A stretch of DNA of 64,000 nt from the NCBI RefSeq assembly GCF_000626675.1, contig NZ_CP006842.1:3286001-3350000 (forward strand). The letters run 5' to 3'. Position 1 is the stretch's first letter. The number at the start of each line of letters is the position of its first letter. Positions 1-60,116 of the stretch are shown here, one piece after another. The notes below the pieces were generated by a model. That model was not told where the DNA came from. It ran no database searches and was given only the letters and a program-made list of their open reading frames with translations. The translations under genes were made by a program, and so were the position numbers. This DNA is from Corynebacterium glyciniphilum AJ 3170. Lineage in GTDB: Bacteria; Actinomycetota; Actinomycetes; Mycobacteriales; Mycobacteriaceae.

Positions 1-722
1 GCCCTGGCGAACCCCTTCTCCTCCCGGAGCTGTCGCCGCAGCGTGCGGGACGTTCTGGTCTCGGTCGCCACCCACACCGCCGCGTCTTGCGGAACCTCCA
101 TTCCGGACAACACCTCCGGCAGCCCACTGGGGGCGACGCCGTTACCGGTGCCCGACAACCAGACGCAGTCAACGTCCCCGCACGTCGGGGAGATCTCGTA
201 GCCCTCGTCCCTGACCTCACAGACCAGGGTGGATGCCATTCCCGCCGGGGCAGTCTCGCAGATGCGCAGCGCGGCGGGCAGCCCCGGCTCATCACAGAAG
301 AGGAACTGACGGGTGGCACCGTCTGGGCGCCGGTAGACCTCCACCGGCTCGGTCAGCCCGACCTCACCACCCACGTCGACGGAGGTCGCCCAGGTGGTCG
401 CGACGCCGTTGCCGTGAACGACGAAATCAATGTCCACCTCGCCGGGGCGCCAGTCACGGATGGTGTAGGTCCGCATCTCCGAAGGCTCCACTCCATCCCC
501 GTAGACCCAGCCCCGCCCCTCCAACACGGGAAGGCGGACGGCATCGCGGGGAGCGTCAGGAAAGAAGACCCTGACCCATTCGTCGCCGACACCCGTGGTG
601 GGATAGTCGGCCATGTCCGGTCCGCCAAGACTAATCCGCACCATGGCCTTGCCCACCCGGGTTACCGCGGTGACCTCCGCCCGATGGATACGGGGCTCGA
701 CGGACTTCCCACCTGCATTCAC
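1..722 (-). CDS. Siderophore-interacting protein (FAD-dependent ferric-siderophore reductase), C-terminus cut by window edge
   Basis: About 240 codons are present; the C-terminal part lies beyond base 1. I read it on the minus strand from a GTG at 722 with an AGGAG ribosome site six bases upstream. The N-terminal half carries the SIP-family flavin-binding stretch RTYTIRDWRPGEVDIDFVVH. Further on are a FLFCDEPGLPAA segment and WLSGTGNGVAPS, typical of the NAD(P)H-binding half. SIP proteins use FAD and a pyridine nucleotide to reduce Fe(III) bound to an imported siderophore in the cytoplasm. It is divergent from an iron-type binding lipoprotein, with an iron-box-like palindrome between them, so iron-repressed expression is likely. 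Family assignment is secure; the siderophore is unknown. Confidence 0.88.
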   Translation of the reverse strand, partial: MNAGGKSVEPRIHRAEVTAVTRVGKAMVRISLGGPDMADYPTTGVGDEWVRVFFPDAPRDAVRLPVLEGRGWVYGDGVEPSEMRTYTIRDWRPGEVDIDFVVHGNGVATTWATSVDVGGEVGLTEPVEVYRRPDGATRQFLFCDEPGLPAALRICETAPAGMASTLVCEVRDEGYEISPTCGDVDCVWLSGTGNGVAPSGLPEVLSGMEVPQDAAVWVATETRTSRTLRRQLREEKGFAR

Positions 723-779
723 TGCCAACTCCTACCTGTACCCCGCGGGTCACCCCGGGGAGATCTCCTCTGTCAGTAC

Positions 780-798
780 TAAGGTGACCCTACCCGAA
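780..798. promoter_or_regulatory. DtxR-type iron box between divergent SIP and lipoprotein genes
   Basis: The 19-mer TAAGGTGACCCTACCCGAA matches the corynebacterial DtxR consensus TWAGGTWAGSCTWACCTWA at 15 of 19 positions by my count. It sits 58 bases from the start of the SIP gene and 88 bases from the start of the lipoprotein gene, in the only intergenic gap of the divergent pair. Function is inferred from sequence and context only. Confidence 0.6.
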
Positions 799-885
799 GT
801 GATCTTCGCGCAGCGGACAGAGCTTGTCGTCCAGACGCCACAGGTTGGCCGCCACACGCATCACGGCGACATTAGCCTCAGCACC

Positions 886-1869
886 ATGACACTCAGAAGA
901 CGTTTCACCGGCCCACTGCTCGCCAGTCTCTGCGCCGTATCGCTGGCCAGTCTCTCCGCGTGCTCGACAGATGACGGCGACACCGGCACCGGGGCCGGCT
1001 CCGGGGCCGACACCATCACCTTCGACTACGCGGGCCAGCAGGTGGAGATCCCCGCCGACCCCCAGCGGGTCGTGTGCATCGAAACACGCCTCTGCCCGGA
1101 GTTCGCCGAGATCACGGGTCTCAACCTGGTCGCCACCCCGGAGATACCCGTAGAATCGGCGGAGGACAACGTGGTGAACGATGACCTTCCCGACTCGGTG
1201 ACCAGGTACAGCTTCGACACGACCGCCCCGGATGCCGAGGCCGTGGCGGACCTGGACCCCGACCTGATCATCACGACCGCCGCCTGGTTCGACACCTACG
1301 ACCGCGAGCAGCAGGAACGCCTGGAAGGCATCGCACCGGTGCTGGGACTCGACGGTGACCTGACGTCAACCTCCGCCACCGCCGGTGATGACGCCTGGTT
1401 GGCACCGCTGCTGGACCAGGCGGAGCAACTGGGGAAGAGAGAGGATGCTGAGCAGAGTATCCAGGAGTACCACCGGACCGTCGACGAAGGCGCCGAACGC
1501 CTCGCGGACTACGAGGGGAAAACCGTTGCCGTCGTCGCACTGCAGGACGACCAGTTCGTACTCGAGGACGAGAACCTCGTCCCGGAGGTCCTCACCGACC
1601 TCGGCTTCTCACTCCTCACCGACAGCGGGTCCCGTGAGGCCGACGGGTCCCTGAAGCTGTACAGCAAGGAAAACCTCAACATCCTCGCCGATGCCGACGT
1701 CATCCTGGTGCAGAATCCGGACTCCACCATCGCCGACGACGCGATCTGGAAGCGGTTGCCGGCGGTGGTGGACGGCAAGACCCCGCAACTCCTGTACAAC
1801 CACCGCGCGGGGTACTCCAAGGTCGGGGCGAACTTCGCCGAGTACATCGTCGACCAGCTCACCGCGTAG
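886..1869 (+). CDS. Iron-siderophore ABC transporter substrate-binding lipoprotein
   Basis: 327 residues. The start was chosen because MTLRRRF opens a clean lipoprotein signal peptide ending in a lipobox (LSAC, Cys about residue 24). A longer in-frame reading upstream has no signal features. No good Shine-Dalgarno precedes this ATG, so a leaderless or weakly led transcript is possible. The mature protein follows the FecB/FhuD periplasmic-binding pattern: VEIPADPQRVV near the N-terminus, DLDPDLIITTAAW in the middle and a C-terminal domain closing lobe two. It would bind a ferric siderophore outside the membrane. It is convergent with another binding protein only 11 bases downstream. No FecC/BtuC-type permease is nearby. 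Confidence 0.9.
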   Translation: MTLRRRFTGPLLASLCAVSLASLSACSTDDGDTGTGAGSGADTITFDYAGQQVEIPADPQRVVCIETRLCPEFAEITGLNLVATPEIPVESAEDNVVNDDLPDSVTRYSFDTTAPDAEAVADLDPDLIITTAAWFDTYDREQQERLEGIAPVLGLDGDLTSTSATAGDDAWLAPLLDQAEQLGKREDAEQSIQEYHRTVDEGAERLADYEGKTVAVVALQDDQFVLEDENLVPEVLTDLGFSLLTDSGSREADGSLKLYSKENLNILADADVILVQNPDSTIADDAIWKRLPAVVDGKTPQLLYNHRAGYSKVGANFAEYIVDQLTA

Positions 1870-1880
1870 CGGTCACACAC

Positions 1881-2969
1881 TCAGTCGAGCGAGTCGGACA
1901 CCGCACCGGCGATGTCGTCGACCGCCCAAGCGAGACTCAGCGGGGTGGACGTCGCCAGTGCCAGTCCCACGTCCGAGTCGGAGATCACGGTCGCATTCCC
2001 GCTGCCGACCGGCCCCCATGCCGCGAAGGAACGGTCCGTGGCGAGCGCGGCATCCCATTCCTCCTGACTGGTGGTGGTCACGTACGTGTCGGCGTCGGTA
2101 CTGATCAGGCGTTCCACGGCGACATTGAAGCTGGACACCCCGTCCGCCTCCCTCGCCAACGGATCGAGATCCGGTGACGGCACCATACCGAGCTTCTCCA
2201 GGGTCTTCACCCGAGGGTCCGCCTCCGAGAAGATCACCACCTGGCCGTCGTCGGGGAGAAAACCGTAGAAGAACGACACGCCGGAGAGTTCCGGATGCGC
2301 CTCCACGGTCTCCGCGAAGTGGTCGTCCAGGTCCCTGGTGACCGCCTCCGCCTCGGACGGACGGCCCAACGCCTGCCCCACCATCGTCAGGTGGTCTTCA
2401 GCAGACGTGCCCCAGGGCTCGTCAGGGAAGGCGACGGTCGGGGCGATGTCCGAGAGCCGCTGGTACTCCTCGGCCGTGATTCCGGAACTGATGGCGAGGA
2501 TGAGGTCAGGTTCCTGGGTCGCCACGAACTCCGTGTCGACCTCGCCGCGTTCCAGGGACGGTTCAGTGGCGGGCAGCGGCGCGCCGAGCTCTTCGACGGC
2601 CTCGCGGAACCAGGGGTGGAACTCCGCGCTGTCCCCTTCTCCTCCAGCGGGACCCTGTGCGACGGGCACCGTGCCGAGCTGCACGGCGAGGTCCGCACCC
2701 GCCCAACCGACGACAACGAGCCGCTCAGCCGGCTTCTCGATGGTGGTCTCGCCGTAGGCGTGCCCGATGGTGACCGGGAACGCCCCGTCCTCCGCCTCGG
2801 CGAAGACCCTCTCGCCGGAGCTGCCGGTGACGTCAGCGCCGTCACCGCCGTCGGACGACGAGCACCCCACGAGAACCGCACTCAGGACGAGGGCGGTGAG
2901 TAGGGCGGCCACGCCGACGAGGAACTCGGCCAGGCGCCGGCGGGGCGGAATGAATGATGTGGTCGACAT
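1881..2969 (-). CDS. Iron-siderophore substrate-binding lipoprotein, second gene of a tandem pair
   Basis: 362 residues, read from ATG at 2969 with GGAGG nine bases upstream, inside the end of the preceding gene. The signal peptide is long and hydrophobic, ending in a lipobox (VGC, Cys about residue 36) followed by a Ser/Asp/Gly-rich linker. FecB-type features include AERLVVVGWAGADLAVQLG, a TQEPDLILAISS segment and a QALGR helix. It lies 4 bases behind the 2974-3972 lipoprotein gene, so the two are surely co-transcribed. The two proteins are clearly different sequences, so this is not a recent duplication; different ligands or a bipartite receptor are both possible. Confidence 0.9.
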   Translation of the reverse strand: MSTTSFIPPRRRLAEFLVGVAALLTALVLSAVLVGCSSSDGGDGADVTGSSGERVFAEAEDGAFPVTIGHAYGETTIEKPAERLVVVGWAGADLAVQLGTVPVAQGPAGGEGDSAEFHPWFREAVEELGAPLPATEPSLERGEVDTEFVATQEPDLILAISSGITAEEYQRLSDIAPTVAFPDEPWGTSAEDHLTMVGQALGRPSEAEAVTRDLDDHFAETVEAHPELSGVSFFYGFLPDDGQVVIFSEADPRVKTLEKLGMVPSPDLDPLAREADGVSSFNVAVERLISTDADTYVTTTSQEEWDAALATDRSFAAWGPVGSGNATVISDSDVGLALATSTPLSLAWAVDDIAGAVSDSLD

Positions 2970-2973
2970 GATC

Positions 2974-3972
2974 TCAGGCCTCCAGCGGGGACAGGATCGT
3001 GTCCTCGATGACGTCCAGGTACGCCGTGGCGGACTCATAGTCGGTGACGAGCCCGTCGACCTCGACCACGTGGCCCTCCTGCGCGGCCTTGAGCTGCCGG
3101 AACAAGGTGTTGTCGATGATCTCCTGCATGACCGGGTCCACGGTTCCGTCGGCGAGCACCGGTACCAGGACAACGTCCGCGTCACCGAGCAGGGAGCCGA
3201 TGTTCTCCGTGGAATACTCCTCCCACCCCTTGGAGAACTCCCCGGTCGGGACAGACGACGCCGTACGCATCCCGACCTCCTCGTACACTGCTCCCAGAAT
3301 CCCGGAGGGGTAGTTGATGTAGAAGTTCGCGGAGTCCGCCATCGGACCGATCGAGGCGAAGGTGTACTCGTCGAGCACGTCCCGGTAGGTGTCCTGTATC
3401 TCGGCGAGCCGCTGCTCGTAGGTCGCCTTCGTCTCCGCCAGCGCGTCCTCGGCGTCGACCGCGGTGGCGATGTCACCGACGATGGCCTTCCAGTCACCCC
3501 GGGTCTCTCCCTCGACGATGACGGTGGGGGCGATCTCAGAGAGTTTTGCGTAGATGTCCTCGTCAACCTCAAGGACGTCCCCGACGATCACATCCGGATC
3601 AGCGGCGGCGACGGCCTCGATGTCCAGGTCGAAGAACGTTCCGACGGGCTCCGCCGACTCCACGAAATCCATCTGCTCGTCGGTGAACCCCTGCGCGTAG
3701 TCGCTGTAGTCCTGGGTCCCCACCGGGGTCACGCCCAGCGACTTCAATTGCCAGGGGGTGTCGTAGGAGACCGCGACAACCCGCTGCGGATCCTCGGGAA
3801 CCTCCACCTCACCGTAGGCGCTGTCGACAGTGTGAAGGCTGTCCCCGCTCTGTCCGTCGTCGGAGGTGCCGCAGGCCGTGGCGGCAATCAACATCCCCCC
3901 GGTCAGGGCCGTGGCCAGGATGCTCCTGCCCGGTACGCGCACCCGGCGCGTCACAGCGGCGGTTCTCTTCAT
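2974..3972 (-). CDS. Iron-siderophore substrate-binding lipoprotein, first gene of a tandem pair
   Basis: 332 residues from ATG 3972, preceded by GAGGAG at good spacing; longer in-frame readings lack signal-peptide character. A basic N-terminus, a hydrophobic stretch and the lipobox ATAC (Cys near residue 34) mark a lipoprotein. The mature part begins with VEVPEDPQRVVAVSYDTPW and contains AAADPDVIVGDVLEVDED, the usual FecB/FhuD layout of two lobes joined by a long helix. It is divergent from the ABC half-transporter genes at 4203 and co-transcribed with the lipoprotein gene behind it. I found no convincing iron box in the 230-base gap upstream. Confidence 0.9.
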   Translation of the reverse strand: MKRTAAVTRRVRVPGRSILATALTGGMLIAATACGTSDDGQSGDSLHTVDSAYGEVEVPEDPQRVVAVSYDTPWQLKSLGVTPVGTQDYSDYAQGFTDEQMDFVESAEPVGTFFDLDIEAVAAADPDVIVGDVLEVDEDIYAKLSEIAPTVIVEGETRGDWKAIVGDIATAVDAEDALAETKATYEQRLAEIQDTYRDVLDEYTFASIGPMADSANFYINYPSGILGAVYEEVGMRTASSVPTGEFSKGWEEYSTENIGSLLGDADVVLVPVLADGTVDPVMQEIIDNTLFRQLKAAQEGHVVEVDGLVTDYESATAYLDVIEDTILSPLEA

Positions 3973-35208: not shown

Positions 35209-36300
35209 TCAGTTGACCGTGTCCGCCAGCAGCGGTGTCAACGTCTCCACCGCCCACTGCGTCGAGAGGGGCCCTGGATAGGCGACCGCCCACGCCAGAT
35301 TGCCCTCGTAGTGCTTCCCGTTGGCCTCGAAAGAGGGGTCGTTGCCCTCCTTGAACGCATTGTTGCTGATGACCAGAACCCGGTCCTCCTGGACAGCCGG
35401 GATGCTGCTGAAGACCGCGCTGTCCTCGAGTTCACCGATCCGCCCGTCGGAATTGTCGAGGACGATGACGACATCGGCCGCCAGGTCGTCGACCCGTTCC
35501 CCGCTGAGCTGCACGCCCTGCAGATCCGCCGTGTCCGCGTCCTCATCGAACCCCATGTCGCTGAACAGCGTCGCAGCATCACCGCCGGCCGGGTTGAGCA
35601 GCCTCATTTCATCGAGTCCGAAGTACTGGATCAATGACACGGTCCTGCCGGCGAACTCCGGATGATCCTTGCGGACGGCGGCCACGGCATCCTCGGTCTT
35701 CTGGACGACCTCGTCGGCCCGCTCCTCCTCCCCGAGGGCCTCGCCCAGGTTGATGAGGGTCTGCTGCCAGTTGCCCGCGATGTCTTCCTGAGTTTCGGCA
35801 GCGATCACCGGCGCGATGCCCGACAACTGGTCGTAGACATCCTTCAGGTCCAGCTGACTGGCGATGATCAGATCCGGTTCTGCCGCCGCAAGCTCCTCCA
35901 TCGGAGGCATCCCGGTCTCGGTGTACTCGAAGGTCGCCGCCGGATCACTCTTCAGCGCGTCGAGCGTCCACGTCTCCTGCTTGACGGTGTTCTCCGGCAC
36001 GATCACCGGAACCTCACCCATCGAAGCGACAATGTCAGTGTCCTTGTACCCCACCGCGGCAATACGTTCCGGACGGGCATCGAGGGTGCTGTCACCCCAG
36101 GGCGAGGTGAACGTTACCGGCGTGAAATCCTCATCGGCGGTGGAAACGTCATTTCCCCCGTCACCGGAGGAACACGCTGCAGACACCAACGACAGGGTGG
36201 CGACGAGAGCGACAAGCGATGACCGTACCGAGGTCCGCACCCCGGTGCGACGGTCTCTGCTCCGCCCGACACCACGTCCGGGCACCGTCGTGACAGTCAT
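35209..36300 (-). CDS. Iron-siderophore substrate-binding lipoprotein
   Basis: 363 residues from ATG 36300 with AGGAG upstream. The signal peptide is long and basic (twelve Arg within the first 30 residues), with the lipobox VSAAC near residue 45 and an SSGDGGND linker. FecB-type features: DARPERIAAVGYKDTDIVAS, AAAEPDLIIASQLDLKDVYD and SSIPAVQEDRVLVISNN. No permease or ATPase gene is adjacent, so it must work with components encoded elsewhere. An iron-box-like palindrome lies 80 bases upstream. It is the fourth of five such lipoproteins in the window. Confidence 0.9.
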   Translation of the reverse strand: MTVTTVPGRGVGRSRDRRTGVRTSVRSSLVALVATLSLVSAACSSGDGGNDVSTADEDFTPVTFTSPWGDSTLDARPERIAAVGYKDTDIVASMGEVPVIVPENTVKQETWTLDALKSDPAATFEYTETGMPPMEELAAAEPDLIIASQLDLKDVYDQLSGIAPVIAAETQEDIAGNWQQTLINLGEALGEEERADEVVQKTEDAVAAVRKDHPEFAGRTVSLIQYFGLDEMRLLNPAGGDAATLFSDMGFDEDADTADLQGVQLSGERVDDLAADVVIVLDNSDGRIGELEDSAVFSSIPAVQEDRVLVISNNAFKEGNDPSFEANGKHYEGNLAWAVAYPGPLSTQWAVETLTPLLADTVN

Positions 36301-50853: not shown

Positions 50854-51038
50854 TAGAACCCCGTGCCGGGAATACACGGTCGGGTCCTCGTCTTGCCAGT
50901 CGTTCAGACCTCGCACGCCAGTATTCTTACCGTCTTTCTCGGTAGCCTGCTCACCCTGCTCCAGATCTCTTACGGTGTGTGCGGCACGGAGATCGACAAC
51001 GACCGCACAGAGTGGTTAGAACGGTTAGAGCGGCTGAG

Positions 51039-51090
51039 ACACCAGGGCTATGTCGGTGGCGGAGGGCACAGACCGACATAGCCCTGGTGT
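51039..51090. terminator. 19-bp perfect hairpin in the convergent YidC/ABC gap
   Basis: Bases 51039-51057 (ACACCAGGGCTATGTCGGT) and 51072-51090 are perfect reverse complements around a 14-base loop. It is the main feature of the 318-base gap (50854-51171) between convergent genes. The rest of that gap holds a 72-codon reading frame (50863-51081) that runs into the hairpin, and a doubled GGTTAGA at 51014-51028; I see no credible gene there. Confidence 0.7.
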
Positions 51091-51171
51091 GCTGCACGTT
51101 CCGAATACGCGCTCGCCGCGGACCGGCAACGTACACGACAGGAATCTGTTTCACCTCGGCGCGAGTGACTC

Positions 51172-52935
51172 TCAGTTGCCCTGGGTCTGTGCGGCCCACA
51201 GCCGGGAGTACTGTCCACCCGCTGCGAGCAGTTCCTCGTGGGTGCCGTCTTCAATGACCTGACCACGTTCCATGACCAGGATCCGGTCGCAGGACGCCGC
51301 CTGCGACAGCCGGTGGGCGATGACCATGCCGGTGCGCCCGGCGAGCGCGGCGTCGGCGGCGTGGTCGAGCAGGTGGGCGTGAGCGGAACCGGCTTCAGCT
51401 GTTGCCTCGTCGAGGATCGCCAATGCAGGATCGGCAAGCAGCAGACGAATCAGGGCGATGTGCTGGGACTGGGCTGCGGTCAACGGTGCTCCGCGGGGAC
51501 CGAGGTCGGTGTCCAGCCCCTGCGGCATCTGGTCAAGCAGGTCCTGCGCACCCGTGGCGGCGACGGCCTGGTTGATCAGCTCGTCACTGGTCCCGGGCGC
51601 AGCGAGGATGAGGTTTTCGCGCAGCGTTGCGGCGAAGATGTGGGTCTCTTGGCTGATCAGCGTGGTGTCGTCCGGAGCGGTGACCGTCCCCGCATCAGCT
51701 GTGTGGATACCGGCGAGGAGTGCGGCGACGGTGGTCTTCCCGGCACCTGAGGTTCCGACCACGGCCAAGTGTTCTCCCGGCGCGATGGTCACGGTGACGT
51801 CGTGCAGGACGTCCGGCCCCTCGGCATAGGCGAAAGTGACATGGTCGAGACCAGCACTGTCCCCCGCGGTGCCTGCCACCCGAGCGCTCTCACGACCGAC
51901 GTCGCTGTCATGGATGTCGACATCCGTCACCCCGACGATCCTCGCCAGTGACGCGGTGGCCAGCTGGAGGGTGTCGATCACGCTCATCAGGGAACGGATG
52001 GGCCCCTGTAGACGCAGGAAGAACAGCACGGCGGTGGTCGCCGCGCCGACGGTCACGGCTCCTTCACCGACCAGGTGGAAACCGAGGACCAGGACAACAC
52101 TGACGGCGACGGCAAAGGCCACGTCGATACGCCAGTTGAACATGGTGACCACGGTGCGGGCGCGTAGAGCCCATCCGGCGACGGCCCAGGACGCCCGACC
52201 GATGCGCCGGTTATGTGTGTCCGACAGGCGGAACGCCGTGACGGTGTCCACCCCGCGCAGCGCGGAGAGGAGGTGGTGGGCGCGGGTGCCGAATGCGAGT
52301 CGTTGCGCGGCATACATCGGCGGGGCGATCCGCATGTACCAGCGCAGCGTCATCCAGTACACCGGGAGCATCACCACGAGTATGATTCCGAACCTCCAGT
52401 CCAGCGCGCTCATTCCCGCGATGGTCAGCAGCAAGGTGAAGATCGTGGACGACAGCACCGGGACGACCTGCTGGAGCGCCTGGGACACCTGGGCGACGTC
52501 GTCGCTGGCGCGGCTGATCAGGTCGCCGGTGCCGGAACGTTCCACCCTCTGCTGGGGAAGGCGGAGTGCCGTGGCCACCAACCGTTCGCGTAGGCCCGCG
52601 AGAATCCGTTCGAAACTGCGCGCGGCCAGCAGAACCCCGAGGATTTGCAGCGCACCTCCCCCAACGATGGAGACAATGATAAGCAGGGCATAGTTCCACA
52701 ACGGGGAGGGGGCGTCATTGGTGATGTCGTCGACCACTCGGCCGAGAGTCGCCGGGGCGATGAGTTCAAGGGCGGCGGCAATGCCCGCGAAGACTGCGGC
52801 GAGGACCAGGATGATCCGGCGCCCACGGAGGGCCTCCCACAGGACAGCGGCGGTACGCCGTCCCGTGGCGGTGGGCAGACGGTCCCCGATGTCAACAGAA
52901 TCGGTGGCGCCCGCGGTGTCGGTTGTGTCAGCCAT
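51172..52935 (-). CDS. ABC half-transporter (exporter fold), subunit with intact Walker A and degenerate signature
   Basis: 587 residues from ATG 52935, overlapping the stop of the preceding half-transporter by 8 bases. Six-helix membrane domain (about 40-320), then a nucleotide-binding domain with GTSGAGKTT (bases 51730-51757), Walker B LAILDEAT and the H-loop MVIAHRLSQ. The signature is altered to PLTAAQSQ where LSGGQRQ is expected (about 51459-51489). Same composition as the 5849-7582 protein. With its partner it should form one canonical ATP site. The setting (SIP reductase, iron lipoprotein, iron box) points to siderophore import of IrtAB type. Confidence 0.88.
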   Translation of the reverse strand: MADTTDTAGATDSVDIGDRLPTATGRRTAAVLWEALRGRRIILVLAAVFAGIAAALELIAPATLGRVVDDITNDAPSPLWNYALLIIVSIVGGGALQILGVLLAARSFERILAGLRERLVATALRLPQQRVERSGTGDLISRASDDVAQVSQALQQVVPVLSSTIFTLLLTIAGMSALDWRFGIILVVMLPVYWMTLRWYMRIAPPMYAAQRLAFGTRAHHLLSALRGVDTVTAFRLSDTHNRRIGRASWAVAGWALRARTVVTMFNWRIDVAFAVAVSVVLVLGFHLVGEGAVTVGAATTAVLFFLRLQGPIRSLMSVIDTLQLATASLARIVGVTDVDIHDSDVGRESARVAGTAGDSAGLDHVTFAYAEGPDVLHDVTVTIAPGEHLAVVGTSGAGKTTVAALLAGIHTADAGTVTAPDDTTLISQETHIFAATLRENLILAAPGTSDELINQAVAATGAQDLLDQMPQGLDTDLGPRGAPLTAAQSQHIALIRLLLADPALAILDEATAEAGSAHAHLLDHAADAALAGRTGMVIAHRLSQAASCDRILVMERGQVIEDGTHEELLAAGGQYSRLWAAQTQGN

Positions 52936-54682
52936 GGGCCCCCTCCATGTCGATGACCCTGTCGCAGGCGGCGAGCAGAGTGGCAGACCCGCTGACCACC
53001 ACGGTGGTCCGGCCTTCCCGGACGGCAGCGAGTCGGCTGGCGATGGTGTGTTCAGTGATCGCGTCGACGGCGGTCGTCGGGTCGTGCAGGACGAGGATCG
53101 GTGCATCGACCGCAAGAGCTCGGGCCAGGGCGATGCGCTGACGTTGACCACCGGACAGGCGGGTACCGGATTCACCGACGCGGGTGTCCACTCCAGCGGG
53201 CAGACCGTCCACGATATCGGTACAAGATGCCGCGTACAGGGCACGGTCGCTCATGCCACCGGGTGCCGCCGTCGGGACGATGTTGTCGGCGATGGTGCCG
53301 TCGAAGATGTCGGCGTTGTGTGGCGAGGCAAGGACATACCTGCGGTAGGTGTCGACGGGGAGCGTCTCCGCCGGGACGGTGCGCGCACCGGAGATCAGGG
53401 TCACTCCGCGCGCCCCACTGGCCAGGGTGTCCACCAGATCGCGTGCATCGGCACCACCCGCACGGATACCGAGTAGCTCACCCGGAGCGGCACGGAAACC
53501 TTGGCTCTGAAGGCCCAGTGGTTTTTCGCTCAACCGTTTCACTTTCTCGTCGAGAGCACTCCCCGTATCGCGCCGGTCGTCAGCGTAGGGAGTCTTGAGC
53601 AGGTCAAGCACGCGCCCGGCGGAGGCGACGCCGGATGCCCAGATTGACCCGACGGAACGTGGCAGATTGGTCAGCGGGTTCATCATGAACTGTGTGACAC
53701 CAATGACGGCGATGAGGTCGCCGATGCTCAGCGCGCCCTGGATGGCCATGGCGGTCGCTGCAACGGTGAGACCAGCGATGAATACGCCGGAAACCACGTT
53801 CATGGAGCCGAAGTAGAGGCCGCGCGAATTCTGTACGGTCAGCGCCCCCTCCAGTGCATCCTGACTGACGCGGGTGTAGCGGTCGGTGGAGATCTCTTCG
53901 GCCCGGAGCCCTTTGATGGTGCGGTAGCCGGTGATCAGGTCGGATGCCTGTCCGGTGGCCGCTGCAACGCGGGCCTGTTGTTCCTTGCTGCGGCGCTGCA
54001 TCGGACGGCCTGCCAGTGTCATCACCCACAGCATCAGGGGAGCGCCCACTAAGACGGCCGAGCCCAGGGGCCAGGCGATGGTGAGCAGGATGACGCCACC
54101 GGCGACGATGGCGACGAGCTCGCCGACAGGGTACACACCGAGCTGCATCGTGAACGCCACGCGGAAGACGTCCCCGGTGGCGATGGAGAGGTCCGCGCCA
54201 CCGAGCTGCCGGCCCTTCATTCCTGCGGGATGCAGCAGGCGGTCGGTGACGGTCATCCGCAGCCGGTGCTGGACCGCCTGCATACCGTACTGGCCGCAGC
54301 GTGAACCGAACCGGGTAGCCAGGGAACTCACCAGCACAGCACTGATGACGATGAAACACCACAGGATCAGTTCGCGCGTGTCCTGGGTGGCTATGGCCCG
54401 GTCCACGGTGGTCCCTGCGGCGACGGGAAGCAGCGCACCGGCAACCTGACTGATTCCCAGGAGAACAGCCGCCGGAAGGGTGAATTTCTTCGCCCCGAGG
54501 ATGATTCGCCAGGTGAAGCGGGTCGGCGTGGTGGTCTGATCGTAGGGGACAACAGCATGCGCCGGTGGAGTGTTCGAGGCCTGGAAGAGCAGTGGCCACC
54601 GGATACCGAAGAGATGGCTGCGGAGAGCTTCACCGTCAGTGGCGGGCGCAGTCCCCGGAGCGGCACGTTTAGGCGGTGGCAT
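52928..54682 (-). CDS. ABC half-transporter (exporter fold), subunit with degenerate Walker A and B
   Basis: 584 residues from ATG 54682 with AAAGGA upstream. The first 50 residues are a hydrophilic extension; six membrane helices follow. In the nucleotide-binding domain Walker A reads GIRAGGADARDL with no lysine; Walker B is ILVLHDPT, where the Asp-Glu pair has become His-Asp; the switch histidine is lost (VVVSGSATLL). Only LSGGQRQR (bases 53138-53161) is perfect. It can therefore supply a signature motif to its partner but cannot hydrolyse ATP itself. More degenerate than the equivalent subunit at 4203-5852. Confidence 0.88.
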   Translation of the reverse strand: MPPPKRAAPGTAPATDGEALRSHLFGIRWPLLFQASNTPPAHAVVPYDQTTTPTRFTWRIILGAKKFTLPAAVLLGISQVAGALLPVAAGTTVDRAIATQDTRELILWCFIVISAVLVSSLATRFGSRCGQYGMQAVQHRLRMTVTDRLLHPAGMKGRQLGGADLSIATGDVFRVAFTMQLGVYPVGELVAIVAGGVILLTIAWPLGSAVLVGAPLMLWVMTLAGRPMQRRSKEQQARVAAATGQASDLITGYRTIKGLRAEEISTDRYTRVSQDALEGALTVQNSRGLYFGSMNVVSGVFIAGLTVAATAMAIQGALSIGDLIAVIGVTQFMMNPLTNLPRSVGSIWASGVASAGRVLDLLKTPYADDRRDTGSALDEKVKRLSEKPLGLQSQGFRAAPGELLGIRAGGADARDLVDTLASGARGVTLISGARTVPAETLPVDTYRRYVLASPHNADIFDGTIADNIVPTAAPGGMSDRALYAASCTDIVDGLPAGVDTRVGESGTRLSGGQRQRIALARALAVDAPILVLHDPTTAVDAITEHTIASRLAAVREGRTTVVVSGSATLLAACDRVIDMEGAHG

Positions 54683-54727
54683 GCATGGTCCTTTCAGGTC
54701 AACATGTCCAGTATGCCCGAAGCGACG

Positions 54728-54746
54728 GACGCCTCAACGAGGCGTC
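54728..54746 (-). terminator. Small hairpin between the SIP-fusion gene and the ABC genes
   Basis: GACGCCTC-AAC-GAGGCGTC, perfect 8-bp stem with a 3-base loop, in the 129-base gap between two leftward genes. No T-tract. It may reduce read-through so that the transporter genes are made at a different level, or stabilise a processed transcript. Confidence 0.4.
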
Positions 54747-54811
54747 GCCACCATCACCCCACCGGCACCACTACGCCGTTGCAGGTGGTACTCCTCTAAA
54801 GCTCCATGTTG

Positions 54812-56692
54812 CTACCGCCCTGTGGCAGTCAACGTGTAGATGGTCCGGTCCCAGCCGAACTTCTCTTTCCCCGAGGCCGTGACCCCCGCATCCTCGAAGA
54901 CCGCCGCCAACTCCTCATCGGTACGGTAACCCGAGCCCCAGACAGCGAGAGACAACACATCGTTCTCCGCGGCATGTTCATCGATGCGTCCGGTCACGTC
55001 GAACGTGTCCTCCACCGCAAGAACCTTTCCCGTCCGGTCCGCCAGGTGCGCAAGCAGGTGGGAGGCATCGACATCCGGCAATGTTCCCAGTAGATGTATC
55101 AGCAGAACAGCATCTGGCCGACTCCCCGGTGTCTCTCCCGCCAATTCACCGAACAATGATCCGGCCACCACCGAGATCCGCTCACGCTGTTCTGCGGTCA
55201 CACCACCCATGTCTGCCAGCGCCTTGGTAAGGAAATCTGCCTGCGAGGGTATCGCCACAATACTGATGCGCATACCCGCGTGCTCCTCAACCAGGGCCGC
55301 CGCCAGATTTGCTGCGCCGTTGCCGTGGAGCACCACGTGATCCAGATCTTTCACTGCCTCAGTTTCTGCCAGAGGACCCGCCTGGTAGCGGGCGAAATCC
55401 TCCATGCCTTCCTGCAGCTTGTCTTCATACCACTGTTCGGAACGGAGTCCACCGTAAGTCTGCCCGGTCACGGACCTGTACACGGCCTCACCGGTCACCA
55501 CCGCCTCGGTGAGACCCCGCCAGCCGAGTTCCAGACGGGCGTGCGCACCGTCGTGGTGGAGAACGGCGAGGACGTCGTCGACGGTCAGGAACTCTCCCGT
55601 CTCTGACAACGCAAAGTGCCCGGGTGAGGTCTCCAGCAGAATGTCCAGGGCGGCAAGATAACGCAGCAGTTTTCCTAGTGCCCGAGGGTTCGCCCCGGTC
55701 GTCTCAGCCAGGGCACCGACACTGGTGGTCCCGTGGAAAATGAGGTTCCCCAGGTCCAGGTCGGCGGCGGTACGGAGTGCGTAGGCAGGGCCGATTTCCG
55801 CCAGCTCGTGAAACGTCTCCCACGCTTCGGGGTTCGCTTCCGGATCAGGAATCGCCGGGTCGTCGTCGAGCGTCACGACCTCGCCCTGGCGCCAGTACCC
55901 GGTGAAGTCGATGTCCTTCTTGTCCATACCCCGCTCTGCGATGAGATGACGACGGATGTGCTTGACCGGACCGGATTCTCCGCCGATCCAGGCGAAAGCA
56001 TGCCCCTCCCACCAGTCCATGTTCTCCACGGCGTCAGTCAGCAACGTCGTCGTTCCTGCGGGTTGCCCGCCTCGAGGCAACCAGGTGACGTGTACACCCG
56101 GGAGCTGGCGCAGCGGAGCACGGTGGGAGGGTACAGCAATCTCAATGAACACCTGCGCCCGGGCGTCCTCCGGAAGACTTTCGAGCAGTCGGGCGATCGC
56201 GGGGATTGCGGTGTCTTCCCCGACCACGAGGAGCCAGTCGGCGTCGGGCAGCGCCGAGCTGGTCGGTGGGCCGGCAAAGTGCATGGTGTCACCGGGCGCG
56301 CAACGGTACGCCCAGTTGGTGGCGACGCCGACACCGTGCTTGACGAAATCCACGGTGAGTTCCGTTTGGCCCGTAGTCGAATTATCGAAAGCCCGTACGG
56401 TGTAGTCCTTGCCAATCGGACGCGGGTCCTTCGGTATCTCGATCGTCCCGTGCTTCTGAACCGGCAGCACAGGTTCATTCTCGCCAGGGTAGGGGAAGAA
56501 GAGTTTGATGCTGTCATCGAATCCGGTGCTGGTGAACGCCGGCAGTTCCATACCGTCACGGGTGAAGGCTCCGAGCTCGTCGCCGGTGAAAACAATGCGG
56601 CGCAATGCAGGTGTGATGTCCTCGATGCGCGAGACGTTCACCCTGCGCAGCGTGATGGGGTTGGTGGTGATGTCACGGTTGACGATCGGCAC
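54812..56692 (-). CDS. Siderophore-interacting reductase fused to an O-methyltransferase-like domain
   Basis: 626 residues, twice the usual SIP length. Residues 1-285 form a complete SIP: GKDYTVRAFDNSTTG (flavin block), FVKHGVGVATNWAY, WLLVVGEDTAIPAIARLL and the C-terminal WIGGESGPVKHIRRHL with FTGYWRQGE. Residues 300-385 resemble the winged-helix dimerisation domain of COMT-type O-methyltransferases (TTSVGALAETTGANPRALGK). Residues 430-626 resemble the SAM domain, but motif I reads VVLHGNGAANLAAA and the ribose-binding Asp is replaced (ISIVAIPSQ), so SAM binding is doubtful. No frameshift joins the two parts. Reduction of a ferric siderophore is the clear role; the second half may bind the ligand, or modify it. 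Confidence 0.85.
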   Translation of the reverse strand: MPIVNRDITTNPITLRRVNVSRIEDITPALRRIVFTGDELGAFTRDGMELPAFTSTGFDDSIKLFFPYPGENEPVLPVQKHGTIEIPKDPRPIGKDYTVRAFDNSTTGQTELTVDFVKHGVGVATNWAYRCAPGDTMHFAGPPTSSALPDADWLLVVGEDTAIPAIARLLESLPEDARAQVFIEIAVPSHRAPLRQLPGVHVTWLPRGGQPAGTTTLLTDAVENMDWWEGHAFAWIGGESGPVKHIRRHLIAERGMDKKDIDFTGYWRQGEVVTLDDDPAIPDPEANPEAWETFHELAEIGPAYALRTAADLDLGNLIFHGTTSVGALAETTGANPRALGKLLRYLAALDILLETSPGHFALSETGEFLTVDDVLAVLHHDGAHARLELGWRGLTEAVVTGEAVYRSVTGQTYGGLRSEQWYEDKLQEGMEDFARYQAGPLAETEAVKDLDHVVLHGNGAANLAAALVEEHAGMRISIVAIPSQADFLTKALADMGGVTAEQRERISVVAGSLFGELAGETPGSRPDAVLLIHLLGTLPDVDASHLLAHLADRTGKVLAVEDTFDVTGRIDEHAAENDVLSLAVWGSGYRTDEELAAVFEDAGVTASGKEKFGWDRTIYTLTATGR

Positions 56693-56789
56693 GGTGCTCC
56701 TCAGGGACCAGCATTGCGTAAAAGAAACAATTCACTGGCGGATGTTACGAGGCAACAGCGCTACCCGGTGAACCGGAAGCGCCAGGTAC

Positions 56790-58355
56790 TTAACGTGGCG
56801 GACGCCTCACGAATTCACGGGGGCTCATCCCCACCTCCTCCCGAAAGTCCCTGCTAAAAGCGCTGAGGTGCGTGTACCCCACCCGGCGTGCCGTCGCCGA
56901 CGGAGCCACCCCCTGGTCAAGCAGCTCCATGGCGCGACGGACCCGCGCGATTCTCCGCCACCGCCCGTACCCCCGTCCGGTCTCTTCCCGGAACCACCGG
57001 TTCACGGTTCTCGAGCTGACCCCGACGTCCTCGGCCCATTGTGGTGTCGTCGTCCTGCCGGCGAGATCGTCCAACGTCTTTTGTGCGATGAGCCGCGCAG
57101 CCGGCGTAACGGGCATCATGAGAGCGGCGTCCTCGATGTCACGCCGCCGCTGCACCAGCCCACCGAACACCTCGAGCACCTCCGTCGGGTCATACCCCTC
57201 AGGACGTAGCAGCGTGACGCTCGAGACAACATTGTGGAGCATGAACGCCTGCCACGTCGACGGCACTCGGGTCACGACGACGTCGTCCCCACGCACATCA
57301 AGCAGGTCTGCGGGAAACGCCATAGGAAGAGCAACCGCGCCGTCGTCCACCATCACCTCGTGGGAGTGGCCGGCCGGCATCCACACCGCGTCCCCGTCCG
57401 AGAGTTCGATATGCCGGTCGTCGACACTCACCCTCGCGGTCCCGCGGTACATCCATAACACCACATGGGTGTCCCGGTAGGTACGGCGTGCAGCCACAGA
57501 AGCAGGGATCGGTGGCGCCGTCCTTGCGGTCGAGGTACCGCCTGTGAGTGCATCTGCGAAGCGAGTCGTCCGTCGCTCCTCTGAAGCTCTCTCCCCATCT
57601 CCTACGGCGTTGTGCCCCTGAGCCCAACAGGCTGGCGTCTGCCCGAATCGGTCAGAAAAAGCACGGATGAACCCGTGGGAACTCGCGAATCCGACACGGT
57701 CAGCGGCCCAGGACACCGGATAGCCTGCGAGCAGATACTCGCGGGCGGCGTGCAGTCTCATCGCAGTGCGCCATGCACCAGGTGTCATTCCCGTTTCCTT
57801 GAGGAAGGCCCGTCGCAGACTCTGGACACTGATACCCACCGCCGACGCGAGATCACGCAGAAGCCTCGGGTCCGCCGGGAAACGCCACAGGTGCCGGGCA
57901 ATGCCTCCAGCAAGGGAGCTCGTCGGACACACAGGTGCTTCAGGCTGGTCGTCTCGCCGGTCCAGCTCCGCAAGTAACTCATCGCCGGTGTATCCGGGCG
58001 ATCGCATCGGTGATACCCAGGCGGCGAAATGGTGCAGAATCCAGGCATTCCAGGACGCGTCAACAGCAATGACAACCGGTGCCGAGAGATCCGTGACCGC
58101 CCACTCAGGAATAAGCACCGGAATAACGAGGCTGCCGACGTGCACGGTGATCTCGTAGGGGACGCCAGCCGGCACGACGAGACACTCGCCGGATCCGAAC
58201 TCGACCACACCGCCCGGGCTGCGCACCGTCGCGGTCCCCGTGTACACCCAGAGCGCGCAGTGTTGGGTCGCATGGGTCCTCTCCGCTTCATGCGCGCCAG
58301 GGAACCCCGGGGCGGACTTTTCGTCAAGCATCTGTACGTTCTCGTCCACCAACAT
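56790..58355 (-). CDS. Double AraC-type regulator (two cupin + HTH units in one chain)
   Basis: 521 residues from ATG 58355; ATG 58370 is also in frame but lies inside the iron box, and neither has a ribosome site. Unit 1: cupin about 30-85 (CALWVYTGTATV, ECLVVPAGVPYEITV), AraC HTH about 160-245 (LLRDLASAVGISVQSLRRAF, AADRVGFASSHGFIRAFSDR). Unit 2: cupin about 296-351 (VVLWMYRGTARV, DAVWMPAGHSHEVMV), HTH about 437-520 (WAEDVGVSSRTVNRWF, TARRVGYTHLSAFSRDFREE). The units align along their whole length, including ASWNAWILHHF and STWQAFMLHNV, showing an internal duplication. It probably senses a siderophore and activates the transport genes behind it and the lipoprotein in front. Confidence 0.85.
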   Translation of the reverse strand: MLVDENVQMLDEKSAPGFPGAHEAERTHATQHCALWVYTGTATVRSPGGVVEFGSGECLVVPAGVPYEITVHVGSLVIPVLIPEWAVTDLSAPVVIAVDASWNAWILHHFAAWVSPMRSPGYTGDELLAELDRRDDQPEAPVCPTSSLAGGIARHLWRFPADPRLLRDLASAVGISVQSLRRAFLKETGMTPGAWRTAMRLHAAREYLLAGYPVSWAADRVGFASSHGFIRAFSDRFGQTPACWAQGHNAVGDGERASEERRTTRFADALTGGTSTARTAPPIPASVAARRTYRDTHVVLWMYRGTARVSVDDRHIELSDGDAVWMPAGHSHEVMVDDGAVALPMAFPADLLDVRGDDVVVTRVPSTWQAFMLHNVVSSVTLLRPEGYDPTEVLEVFGGLVQRRRDIEDAALMMPVTPAARLIAQKTLDDLAGRTTTPQWAEDVGVSSRTVNRWFREETGRGYGRWRRIARVRRAMELLDQGVAPSATARRVGYTHLSAFSRDFREEVGMSPREFVRRPPR

Positions 58356-58358
58356 GCA

Positions 58359-58377
58359 TAAGGGAAGCATATCCTTA
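58359..58377. promoter_or_regulatory. Strong DtxR-type iron box between regulator and lipoprotein genes
   Basis: TAAGGGAAGCATATCCTTA matches TWAGGTWAGSCTWACCTWA at 16 of 19 by my count and is near-palindromic. It lies 3 bases before the chosen regulator start and 44 bases before the lipoprotein GTG, so DtxR with iron could shut both directions. Confidence 0.75.
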
Positions 58378-58420
58378 CCACGCCACTCTCCTGACACCCG
58401 CACATCCGAAGGACCACACC

Positions 58421-59404
58421 GTGACCGCACGAACCATCCGCAAGACATCACGCTTAGTCGCTGCCATCGTCGGGATTTCACTCACGATGACGCTCGTCGC
58501 CTGCGGCAGTGACGCTGACGATGATGACCGCGTCGCCGCGACGCACGCAAACAGCGACTACTACCCACACACGCAAACCACGGCCTTCGGGGACGCCACC
58601 ATCGAGGCGCAACCCAAACGTGTGCTCGCACTCACCCCGACCGCCGCCGACGAACTCCTCGCACTTGGCATCACCCCCATCGCCGTCGGTACGGATCCCG
58701 ACCAACTGGACGTCACCGCACCCTGGATCGCCGATGACATCCGCGACCTCTCCGACGCAGACCTGGTCGCTAACGCCAGAGACGTCAATGCGGAAAATGT
58801 GGCGAACACTGAGCCAGACCTGATCATCGGGGCTCCCTGGCAGTTCAGTGACGCATCCGTCTGGGAAAGGATCAACTCCATCGCGCCGACAATCATCCCG
58901 GCGACCGCTGATGCTGCCAACGTCGGCTGGGAAGCTTCGCTACGCACCACGGCCGAGGCGGTTGGTATGGAAGACAAGGCCGATGACATCATCACGGAGG
59001 TCAAGACCGAGTACAAAGGCGCCGCGGGAGACGTGCCCGCGGGGAAGACCTATAACTTCACCGGCTACAGCGAAAGCATGGATTTCTTCTCCGGGAATGG
59101 CTCGGTCTTCCAGCTCTTCGGGTTATCTCCGTCCGACAGCCAGGACGACTCCCAAACCCGGTCCGCCTTGTCGGTGGAGAACACCGACCAGCTCACCGGC
59201 GACCTGCTCGCGATATGGCCTCAGACCGACACTGACCGCAGAGCACTCGACGACAACCAGGCATTCCAACAGCTACCCGCAGTTGAAAACGACGCCGTGT
59301 ACTACGCCGATACACAGGATGCGAACGCCATCAACGCTGCCGGACCACATTCGCTGCGGTGGTTCCTGGACCGGATCACCCCGACGGTGAAGAAACTCGG
59401 CTAG
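58421..59404 (+). CDS. Iron-siderophore substrate-binding lipoprotein
   Basis: 327 residues from GTG 58421 with GAAGGA upstream. Signal peptide with lipobox LVAC near residue 27 and an acidic linker (GSDADDDD). FecB-type features: IEAQPKRVLALTPTAADELL, ANTEPDLIIGAPWQF, and INSIAPTIIPATADAANVG. It is divergent from the double AraC regulator across a strong iron box and is the obvious receptor for the transporter encoded on the other strand. Fifth of the five iron lipoproteins in the window. Third positions are slightly less GC-rich than in the neighbours. Confidence 0.92.
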   Translation: MTARTIRKTSRLVAAIVGISLTMTLVACGSDADDDDRVAATHANSDYYPHTQTTAFGDATIEAQPKRVLALTPTAADELLALGITPIAVGTDPDQLDVTAPWIADDIRDLSDADLVANARDVNAENVANTEPDLIIGAPWQFSDASVWERINSIAPTIIPATADAANVGWEASLRTTAEAVGMEDKADDIITEVKTEYKGAAGDVPAGKTYNFTGYSESMDFFSGNGSVFQLFGLSPSDSQDDSQTRSALSVENTDQLTGDLLAIWPQTDTDRRALDDNQAFQQLPAVENDAVYYADTQDANAINAAGPHSLRWFLDRITPTVKKLG

Positions 59405-59429: not shown

Positions 59430-60116
59430 TCAGATGCTGTACATCATCGGTGCGGTGTACAGCAGCTGCTTGGCGAGCTCCCGCGCCGTTTCCAGCGGAG
59501 TGACCGTCCGGTTCATCTTCGCCCCGGCGATACCGCCGTCGAGGAAGACCATCAACTGGTCGGCGAGCGTACGGGAGGCGTAACCGAACTTCTCGGTGAG
59601 CAGGTCCGCCATGGTGTCTCGACACCAGCGGCGGTGTTCGAGTGCAGCAGCACGGATACGATGCTCACTGTCGGTGTCCGGCCGCGGGTACTCGCTGGCC
59701 GCGTTCTGGAAGTGGGATCCGCGGTAGTTCTCCCCCGGCTGATCCGCGATACACATGTCGAAGAATGCGAGGATACGGTCCTCGGGCTTCGGACGGTCGT
59801 CACACATCTTCTCCCAGCGTTCACGCCAGTCCTTGTCCAGTTCCTCGAGGTAGGACACCACGAGATTGTCCTTCGAACCGAACAGCGAGTAGAGACTCGC
59901 CTTTGCCACGTCCGCGTCCCGAAGAATCCGGTCGATACCGATGACACGGATACCTTCGGTGGTGAAGAGGTGCGTAGCGCTCCCCAGCAGTCGCTGCCGC
60001 GGCCCCGGACGATTCCGCCGGCGTGACGTTGAAGGGACCTTCGCCGCCTTCGACTTTTTCTCTTTGGACGGGGACGCGTCGCTGCCGTCGGTCGTCGTGG
60101 AACCGGAGCCGGCCAT
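59430..60116 (-). CDS. TetR-family transcriptional regulator
   Basis: 228 residues from ATG 60116 with GGAGGG upstream. A 37-residue Ser/Lys-rich N-terminal extension precedes the helix-turn-helix (IRVIGIDRILRDADVAKASL, YSLFGSKDNLVV). The rest resembles the YcdC/AcrR-like group with a conserved DMCIADQPGENYRGSHFQNA block, in which relatives respond to small toxic compounds. No target gene is evident; it is convergent with the lipoprotein gene. A truncated copy is excluded because the ligand domain is complete. Confidence 0.9.
   Translation of the reverse strand: MAGSGSTTTDGSDASPSKEKKSKAAKVPSTSRRRNRPGPRQRLLGSATHLFTTEGIRVIGIDRILRDADVAKASLYSLFGSKDNLVVSYLEELDKDWRERWEKMCDDRPKPEDRILAFFDMCIADQPGENYRGSHFQNAASEYPRPDTDSEHRIRAAALEHRRWCRDTMADLLTEKFGYASRTLADQLMVFLDGGIAGAKMNRTVTPLETARELAKQLLYTAPMMYSI

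Follow-up and report, generated by a model that had tools for sequence, protein, structure and literature searches.

The locus at positions 51,172 to 59,404 of a stretch of Corynebacterium glyciniphilum AJ 3170 DNA raises the question of how a siderophore might be sensed, taken up, and relieved of its iron by genes for a binding lipoprotein, a regulator, a reductase, and an exporter-fold ABC pair, with no FecCDE permease set among them. The stretch, referred to here as the window, is the whole of the DNA analyzed (64,000 nucleotides, positions 3,286,001 to 3,350,000 of contig NZ_CP006842.1) and belongs to a genome of 3.57 Mb. We consider it probable that the unit is a stripped form of an actinobacterial siderophore uptake and reduction cassette, one that serves a foreign and perhaps catecholate siderophore by the mechanism proposed below.

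That these genes stand together as a unit, as the first-pass annotation of this DNA had claimed, is borne out by a conserved neighborhood, by an iron-box-like sequence in the promoters of relatives, and by purifying selection on all five genes. The parts and their directions had also been described correctly: each lies where it had been placed, all five reading frames are open, and the Pfam domains match (Table 1). The genes araC, SIP-MT (encoding a SIP-type reductase fused to a methyltransferase-like half, the MT half), ABC2, and ABC1 follow one another on one strand, with gaps of 97 bases between araC and SIP-MT and 129 bases between SIP-MT and ABC2, and the lipoprotein gene diverges from them.

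Conservation of the gene neighborhood

Relatives of the cassette were picked by their SIP-MT match alone, which gave at least 33 loci (numbered with the prefix L). Dropping those with a SIP protein and no MT half (L071-L073, L077), with broken frames (L074), or with little of the gene left (L078) reduced the set to 27, and 23 of these, L046 included, have at least 11 kb of downstream sequence. A binding protein is present in all 23 by a loose criterion, a doubled AraC in 20 (L062 has one a gene away, missed by the distance rule), ABC2 in 19, and ABC1 in 18; FecC and FecD each occur in 18, FecE in 13 (an undercount where frames merge), and a Fes esterase in 7. The full cassette reads araC, then SIP-MT, the siderophore-binding protein, FecC, FecD, FecE, in some cases Fes, ABC2, and ABC1, as in Streptomyces sp. 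SID13726 (L060). In that locus, FecC comes closest to a model for an Fe(3+)-siderophore permease and the esterase to one for enterochelin esterase, neither match reaching the curated cut-off. Conservation of the neighborhood had been proposed as a check on the first-pass annotation, and what it returned is the same parts adjoining one another across many genera of actinobacteria. The cassette is nonetheless patchy and not common, since matches at E ≤1e-100 occur in 6 of 242 genomes of the genus, the window genome included, and, when 395 other genomes were drawn evenly from the phylum, in 1 of these (three candidates scored per genome shown).

The combination of binding protein and ABC pair without FecCDE is found in the window, in both copies of Corynebacterium sp. 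CNJ-954, and in Brevibacterium aurantiacum XU54. Used as a label on a SIP-MT tree, this state requires three changes, at least two of them forced by well-supported branches. The tree was built from the window, one outgroup, and 24 loci of the 27 (all except L064, L066, and L067), with 10 of 23 inner branches open; L047, L062, and L075, which also lack FecCD in range, carried no label in this test. Among the matches listed, CNJ-954 and C. glyciniphilum DE0385 are the named organisms most closely related at this locus, and the CNJ-954 locus L046 is a near copy with identical gene order and identical flanks.

Receptor, regulator, operator, and reductase

The lipoprotein matches Peripla_BP_2 with 56.6 bits, has YfiY (3tny, E 1.6e-14) as its nearest solved relative, and counts siderophore-binding structures among its relatives. 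A further siderophore-binding-protein gene, 25% identical to it, lies at window positions 35227-36222 on the minus strand. The regulator is indeed the double AraC protein that had been claimed, with two HTH_18 (helix-turn-helix) stretches and with halves that share 31% identity across 235 residues (E 5e-27), which identifies it as a tandem duplication; its start is uncertain, with ATG candidates at 58370, 58355, and 58331. Full-length doubled AraC relatives adjoin SIP genes in 22 of the 27 full-length SIP-MT loci and occur as well in the loci that have SIP without the MT half (L071-L073, L077).

Here the operator candidate is flanked by the divergent starts of araC and the lipoprotein gene; in relatives the iron-box-like sequence lies ahead of the SIP gene. 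The Fur-type consensus has no match in the window, and the strict DtxR consensus, with up to three mismatches, has none in the window or the genome. By a relaxed DtxR consensus the site scores 16/19, the best in the window, and with up to three mismatches it is one of two sites in the genome, compared with none for a reversed-pattern control; these window and genome results are not fully independent, as the relaxed form was adopted after the strict one had failed, with the site in view. Thus the box of the first-pass annotation is credible, though to describe it as strong says too much. A pattern loosened after the site had been viewed was rejected as circular, its sole exact match being the site itself. 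The promoters of relatives, being other loci, offer a cleaner test: of 31 loci, 29 have a sequence scoring at least 14/19 ahead of the SIP gene, compared with about 1.6% of 3902 background windows (promoters included). This set of 31 takes in the SIP-only loci and L074 and leaves out L046 and L078; L062 and L074 are the two that fall short. The CNJ-954 box scores 15/19, but this adds no information, since the intergenic DNA around it is mostly conserved as well. The genome encodes two DtxR-family C-terminal domains, and from its sequence the site at 58359-58377 is a credible candidate for a DtxR-type operator. The second genome site, at 2875585-2875603, falls in a gap of 38 bases; 17 bases separate it from the first start codon of an 893-codon frame (2875621 onward; L115, L008). 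This frame matches SIP and, in a later part, an ABC ATPase query, and is possibly IrtA-like.

The reductase is the fusion that had been described, with FAD_binding_9, SIP, and Methyltransf_2 above the Pfam cut-off in one protein and Dimerisation slightly under it. Its SIP half combines FAD_binding_9 and SIP with the fold of solved ferric-siderophore reductases, which it matches. Among 7996 candidates scored, 479 SIP-MT relatives were found at E ≤0.001, and the best 120 of the 479 cover 96-100% of the query, 118 of these 120 with all four Pfam domains. The C-terminal half has the DnrK/RdmB O-methyltransferase fold and differs from those enzymes in the carboxylates expected at the S-adenosylmethionine (SAM) site, which are lost across the SIP-MT family. 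In O-methyltransferases, the acidic residues of motif I and of strand beta-2 bind SAM; in alignment to DnrK, the motif I acid is gone from all 62 relatives, the beta-2 acid is gone from 61 of 62, and none of the 62 has D at the GDF position, two of them being gapped there. Methylation by this half is consequently unlikely, and its role is most likely dimerization or siderophore binding. We found no description of a SIP-methyltransferase fusion with an apparently dead MT half in the literature searched, from which subscription journals were mostly absent, and further searches of it listed no paper recognizable as a description of this locus.

Several further features of this protein and its kin were observed. 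Residues 572-578 of the MT half read E-H-x-x-E-x-D, with H573, E576, and D578 invariant in 62 of 62 relatives; DnrK shares the E and the D of this stretch, not the H. The genome encodes another SIP fusion (561079-562998; L010, L087), which is 31% identical to SIP-MT over residues 2-616 and has Pfam matches to SIP, FAD_binding_9, and Dimerisation and none to Methyltransf_2. In C. variabile NBRC 15286 (L074/L086), the relative of SIP-MT is broken into several frames.

The cassette is bounded on one side by a TetR gene at 59430 and on the other by a hairpin before yidC, which lies between the converging ABC1 and yidC genes and has stems about 19 base pairs long. The folding energies of the region 51030-51100 are -42.8 and -47.3 kcal/mol on the two strands (z -6.7 and -7.5), and the hairpin is probably a bidirectional terminator that marks the edge of the unit. 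Elsewhere in the window, positions 1-3930 hold a second siderophore cluster with a SIP match and binding-protein matches at 889-1488 (plus strand), 1920-2780 (minus), and 3058-3927 (minus), and an iron-box-like site scoring 15/19 lies at 780-798.

Table 1. Features of the cassette, in window coordinates
Feature	Position	Strand	Basis
ABC1, exporter-fold half-transporter (transmembrane and nucleotide-binding domains)	51172..52935	-	Pfam ABC_membrane and ABC_tran
ABC2, exporter-fold half-transporter	52928..54682	-	Pfam; stop overlaps ABC1 start by 8 bases
SIP-MT, SIP-type flavin ferric-siderophore reductase fused to O-methyltransferase-fold half	54812..56692	-	Pfam
Tandem-duplicated AraC regulator, cupin-HTH-cupin-HTH	56790..~58355	-	Pfam, internal repeat
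Iron-box (DtxR-type) operator candidate	58359..58377	.	Between divergent araC and lipoprotein genes
Siderophore-binding lipoprotein, Peripla_BP_2	58421..59404	+	Pfam, lipobox LVAC
Long hairpin, probable bidirectional terminator, unit edge	51039..51090	.	Between ABC1 stop and yidC stop

The ABC pair and the direction of transport

The two ABC proteins are degenerate in complementary ways. ABC1 has intact Walker A and Walker B motifs and H-switch, with LTAAQ in place of LSGGQ; ABC2 keeps LSGGQ and has no Walker A, no H-switch, and a Walker B that ends in D-P and so lacks the catalytic glutamate. Because the intact motifs complement each other, one composite ATP site can work, and reading the motifs of both nucleotide-binding domains confirms the single complete site that had been claimed. 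This state is common to the whole family, LSGGQ being lost in 25 of 25 aligned ABC1 sequences and Walker A in 24 of 24 aligned ABC2 sequences (L046 and L078 nearly duplicate the window; coverage was too low to admit L085, in the case of ABC2, and the broken L067). In a typical heterodimer with a degenerate site, of the TM287/288 type, one signature and the catalytic residues of the other nucleotide-binding domain are degenerate and Walker A is retained. The pair resembles that type in having one domain with a degenerate signature and the other degenerate in its catalytic residues, and differs from it in that Walker A, kept in both domains there, is missing from ABC2. When we placed the pair by profile among solved structures, the best 60 matches per search were mostly ABCB and ABCC exporters; IrtAB and YbtPQ were not among the best 60 of either protein, which is uninformative either way. 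Sequence does not tell import from export by this pair.

As we infer it, the unit would work as follows. At low iron, a DtxR-type repressor would leave the shared operator and both divergent transcripts would begin. The lipoprotein would bind the ferric siderophore outside the membrane, and the two-cupin AraC protein would probably bind siderophore inside the cell and activate the genes. The ABC1/ABC2 heterodimer, with one ATP site made of the ABC1 Walker motifs and the ABC2 LSGGQ, would most likely carry the siderophore inward, because it is the only transporter remaining in the locus; this is our preferred reading. The flavin SIP domain would then reduce Fe(III) and release the iron, with the MT half contributing dimerization or siderophore binding, most likely without methylation. 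Of the functions first proposed for the locus, uptake, sensing, and cytoplasmic handling of a siderophore thus remain in this scheme, and processing by a methyltransferase drops out with the SAM-site carboxylates.

The preferred direction has a serious competitor. The lipoprotein may use a FecCDE importer encoded elsewhere in the genome and the ABC pair may export the emptied siderophore or its breakdown products, an account to which we give a substantial, lesser chance of being correct. It draws on the exporter fold of the pair and on its mostly exporter-like structural matches, and the pair stands beside a FecCDE importer in most relatives; yet the state in which FecCDE is absent and the pair kept needs at least two changes on the SIP-MT tree. 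The genome has a rich siderophore repertoire, with 9 FAD_binding_9, 24 Peripla_BP_2, and 14 FecCD matches. The FecCD matches speak for such an importer, but no cluster-type FecCDE copy was found in the genome, the nearest set being 47-63% identical to cluster-type FecCDE. Exporter-fold importers of siderophores, moreover, do exist, YbtPQ and IrtAB being described as such in the available text of PMC8386196.

Two other accounts concern the MT half and the cassette as a whole. It is very improbable that the C-terminal half still works as a methyltransferase and alters the siderophore in the cytoplasm, considering the losses at motif I, beta-2, and the GDF position described above and the RUSTI-type relative L071, which has SIP without an MT half. 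It is very improbable that the cassette is a decaying, functionless remnant in this strain. The FecCDE genes of most relatives are absent from the locus, and in C. glyciniphilum DE0385 (L078/L097) the same tetR-yidC site has lost araC and most of SIP-MT and has a broken lipoprotein gene, with ABC2 and ABC1 kept (89 and 91% identical); against decay in the present strain stand the open frames and the ratios of nonsynonymous to synonymous substitution (dN/dS), which are 0.11-0.21 across the five genes (0.11 for ABC1, relative to CNJ-954) and 0.195 for the MT half alone, compared with 0.155 for yidC and 0.060 for tetR.

Together with the empty strict-consensus search and the later adoption of the relaxed form, a number of observations weigh against an iron-controlled cassette that imports a foreign, catecholate siderophore through the ABC pair. 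The structural matches of the pair are mostly exporters and do not place it near IrtAB or YbtPQ, and the lipoprotein could use the FecCD sets elsewhere in the genome. Fes, the main hint of a catecholate, is limited to the 7 loci counted above, and Streptomyces Fes was not found in the window or the genome in a search that used a single query without a positive control. Excepting CNJ-954 copy A and C. glyciniphilum, identity between the lipoprotein and its counterparts at other loci does not exceed 42%, and in many loci it gives no match at E 1e-5 when used as the query. Finally, the losses in C. glyciniphilum DE0385 mean that the unit is dispensable there.

We advance only tentatively the fuller version of the import reading, in which a binding-protein-fed, exporter-fold importer with a single ATP site has replaced FecCDE more than once and feeds a reductase whose dead MT domain binds siderophore. 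If the import reading is true, the locus would be a natural minimal case of an exporter-fold ABC pair that imports siderophores with a lipoprotein receptor, and a group of ferric-siderophore reductases in many actinobacterial genera would carry a misleading "methyltransferase" annotation in their fused half. The annotation of such ABC-pair and SIP-MT genes would then need correcting.

Comparison with known siderophore systems

IrtA carries its SIP domain on the same chain as its ABC part, an arrangement absent here, where reductase and ABC pair are separate proteins, and sequence searches do not favor the IrtAB and YbtPQ families for the pair. What is shared with these systems is the exporter-fold ABC heterodimer and, for IrtAB, the SIP-type reductase; a likeness in the way of working is hypothetical. 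Identity with the C. diphtheriae iut locus was considered and rejected, as iut is annotated in the available part of PMC13001254 with a Mn/Zn/Fe binding protein, an ATP-binding protein, and permeases.

Closer parallels come from actinobacteria. In the available text of PMC3219685, the siu and sii clusters of C. variabile DSM 44702 comprise binding proteins, SIP proteins, and AraC regulators with predicted DtxR sites, for which joint control was proposed. The window has the same clustering of binding, SIP, and AraC proteins, here with a candidate DtxR-type operator, and its regulator shares 60% identity with a double-AraC protein attributed to C. variabile; that text, with which no gene-by-gene match could be made, describes no fused MT half, doubled AraC, or one-site ABC pair. 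The ActinoRUSTI regions of cheese actinobacteria, in the part of PMC5526665 available, have an AraC gene beside a siderophore reductase and binding proteins and are induced in competition with Penicillium. The araC gene here likewise lies directly upstream of the reductase gene on the same strand, and the doubled AraC is present in L071 and L072, which we call RUSTI-like by gene order. ActinoRUSTI differs in being horizontally mobile and in having FecCDE-type permeases and an ATPase, whereas none of the genome's FecCD matches lies inside the window and FecC, FecD, and FecE queries found no match there; L071 has SIP without the MT half. Siderophore transport genes move among cheese bacteria, according to the available text of PMC5719810.

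The full cassette of L060 has the same double AraC, SIP-MT, binding protein, ABC2, ABC1, and iron-box-like sequence, adds FecC, FecD, FecE, and a Fes-like esterase, and has its araC divergent from SIP-MT and not from the lipoprotein gene. With siu/sii and ActinoRUSTI in print, this kind of system is already known, and the claim of a new siderophore system does not hold; nor is each part odd for its family, since the doubled AraC, the SIP-MT fusion, and the one-site pair are traits of the whole family. What marks this locus as a variant of that kind is the stripped form without FecCDE, shared with at least one other lineage; the apparently dead MT half of the SIP-MT fusion is the feature of which the literature searched gave no description.
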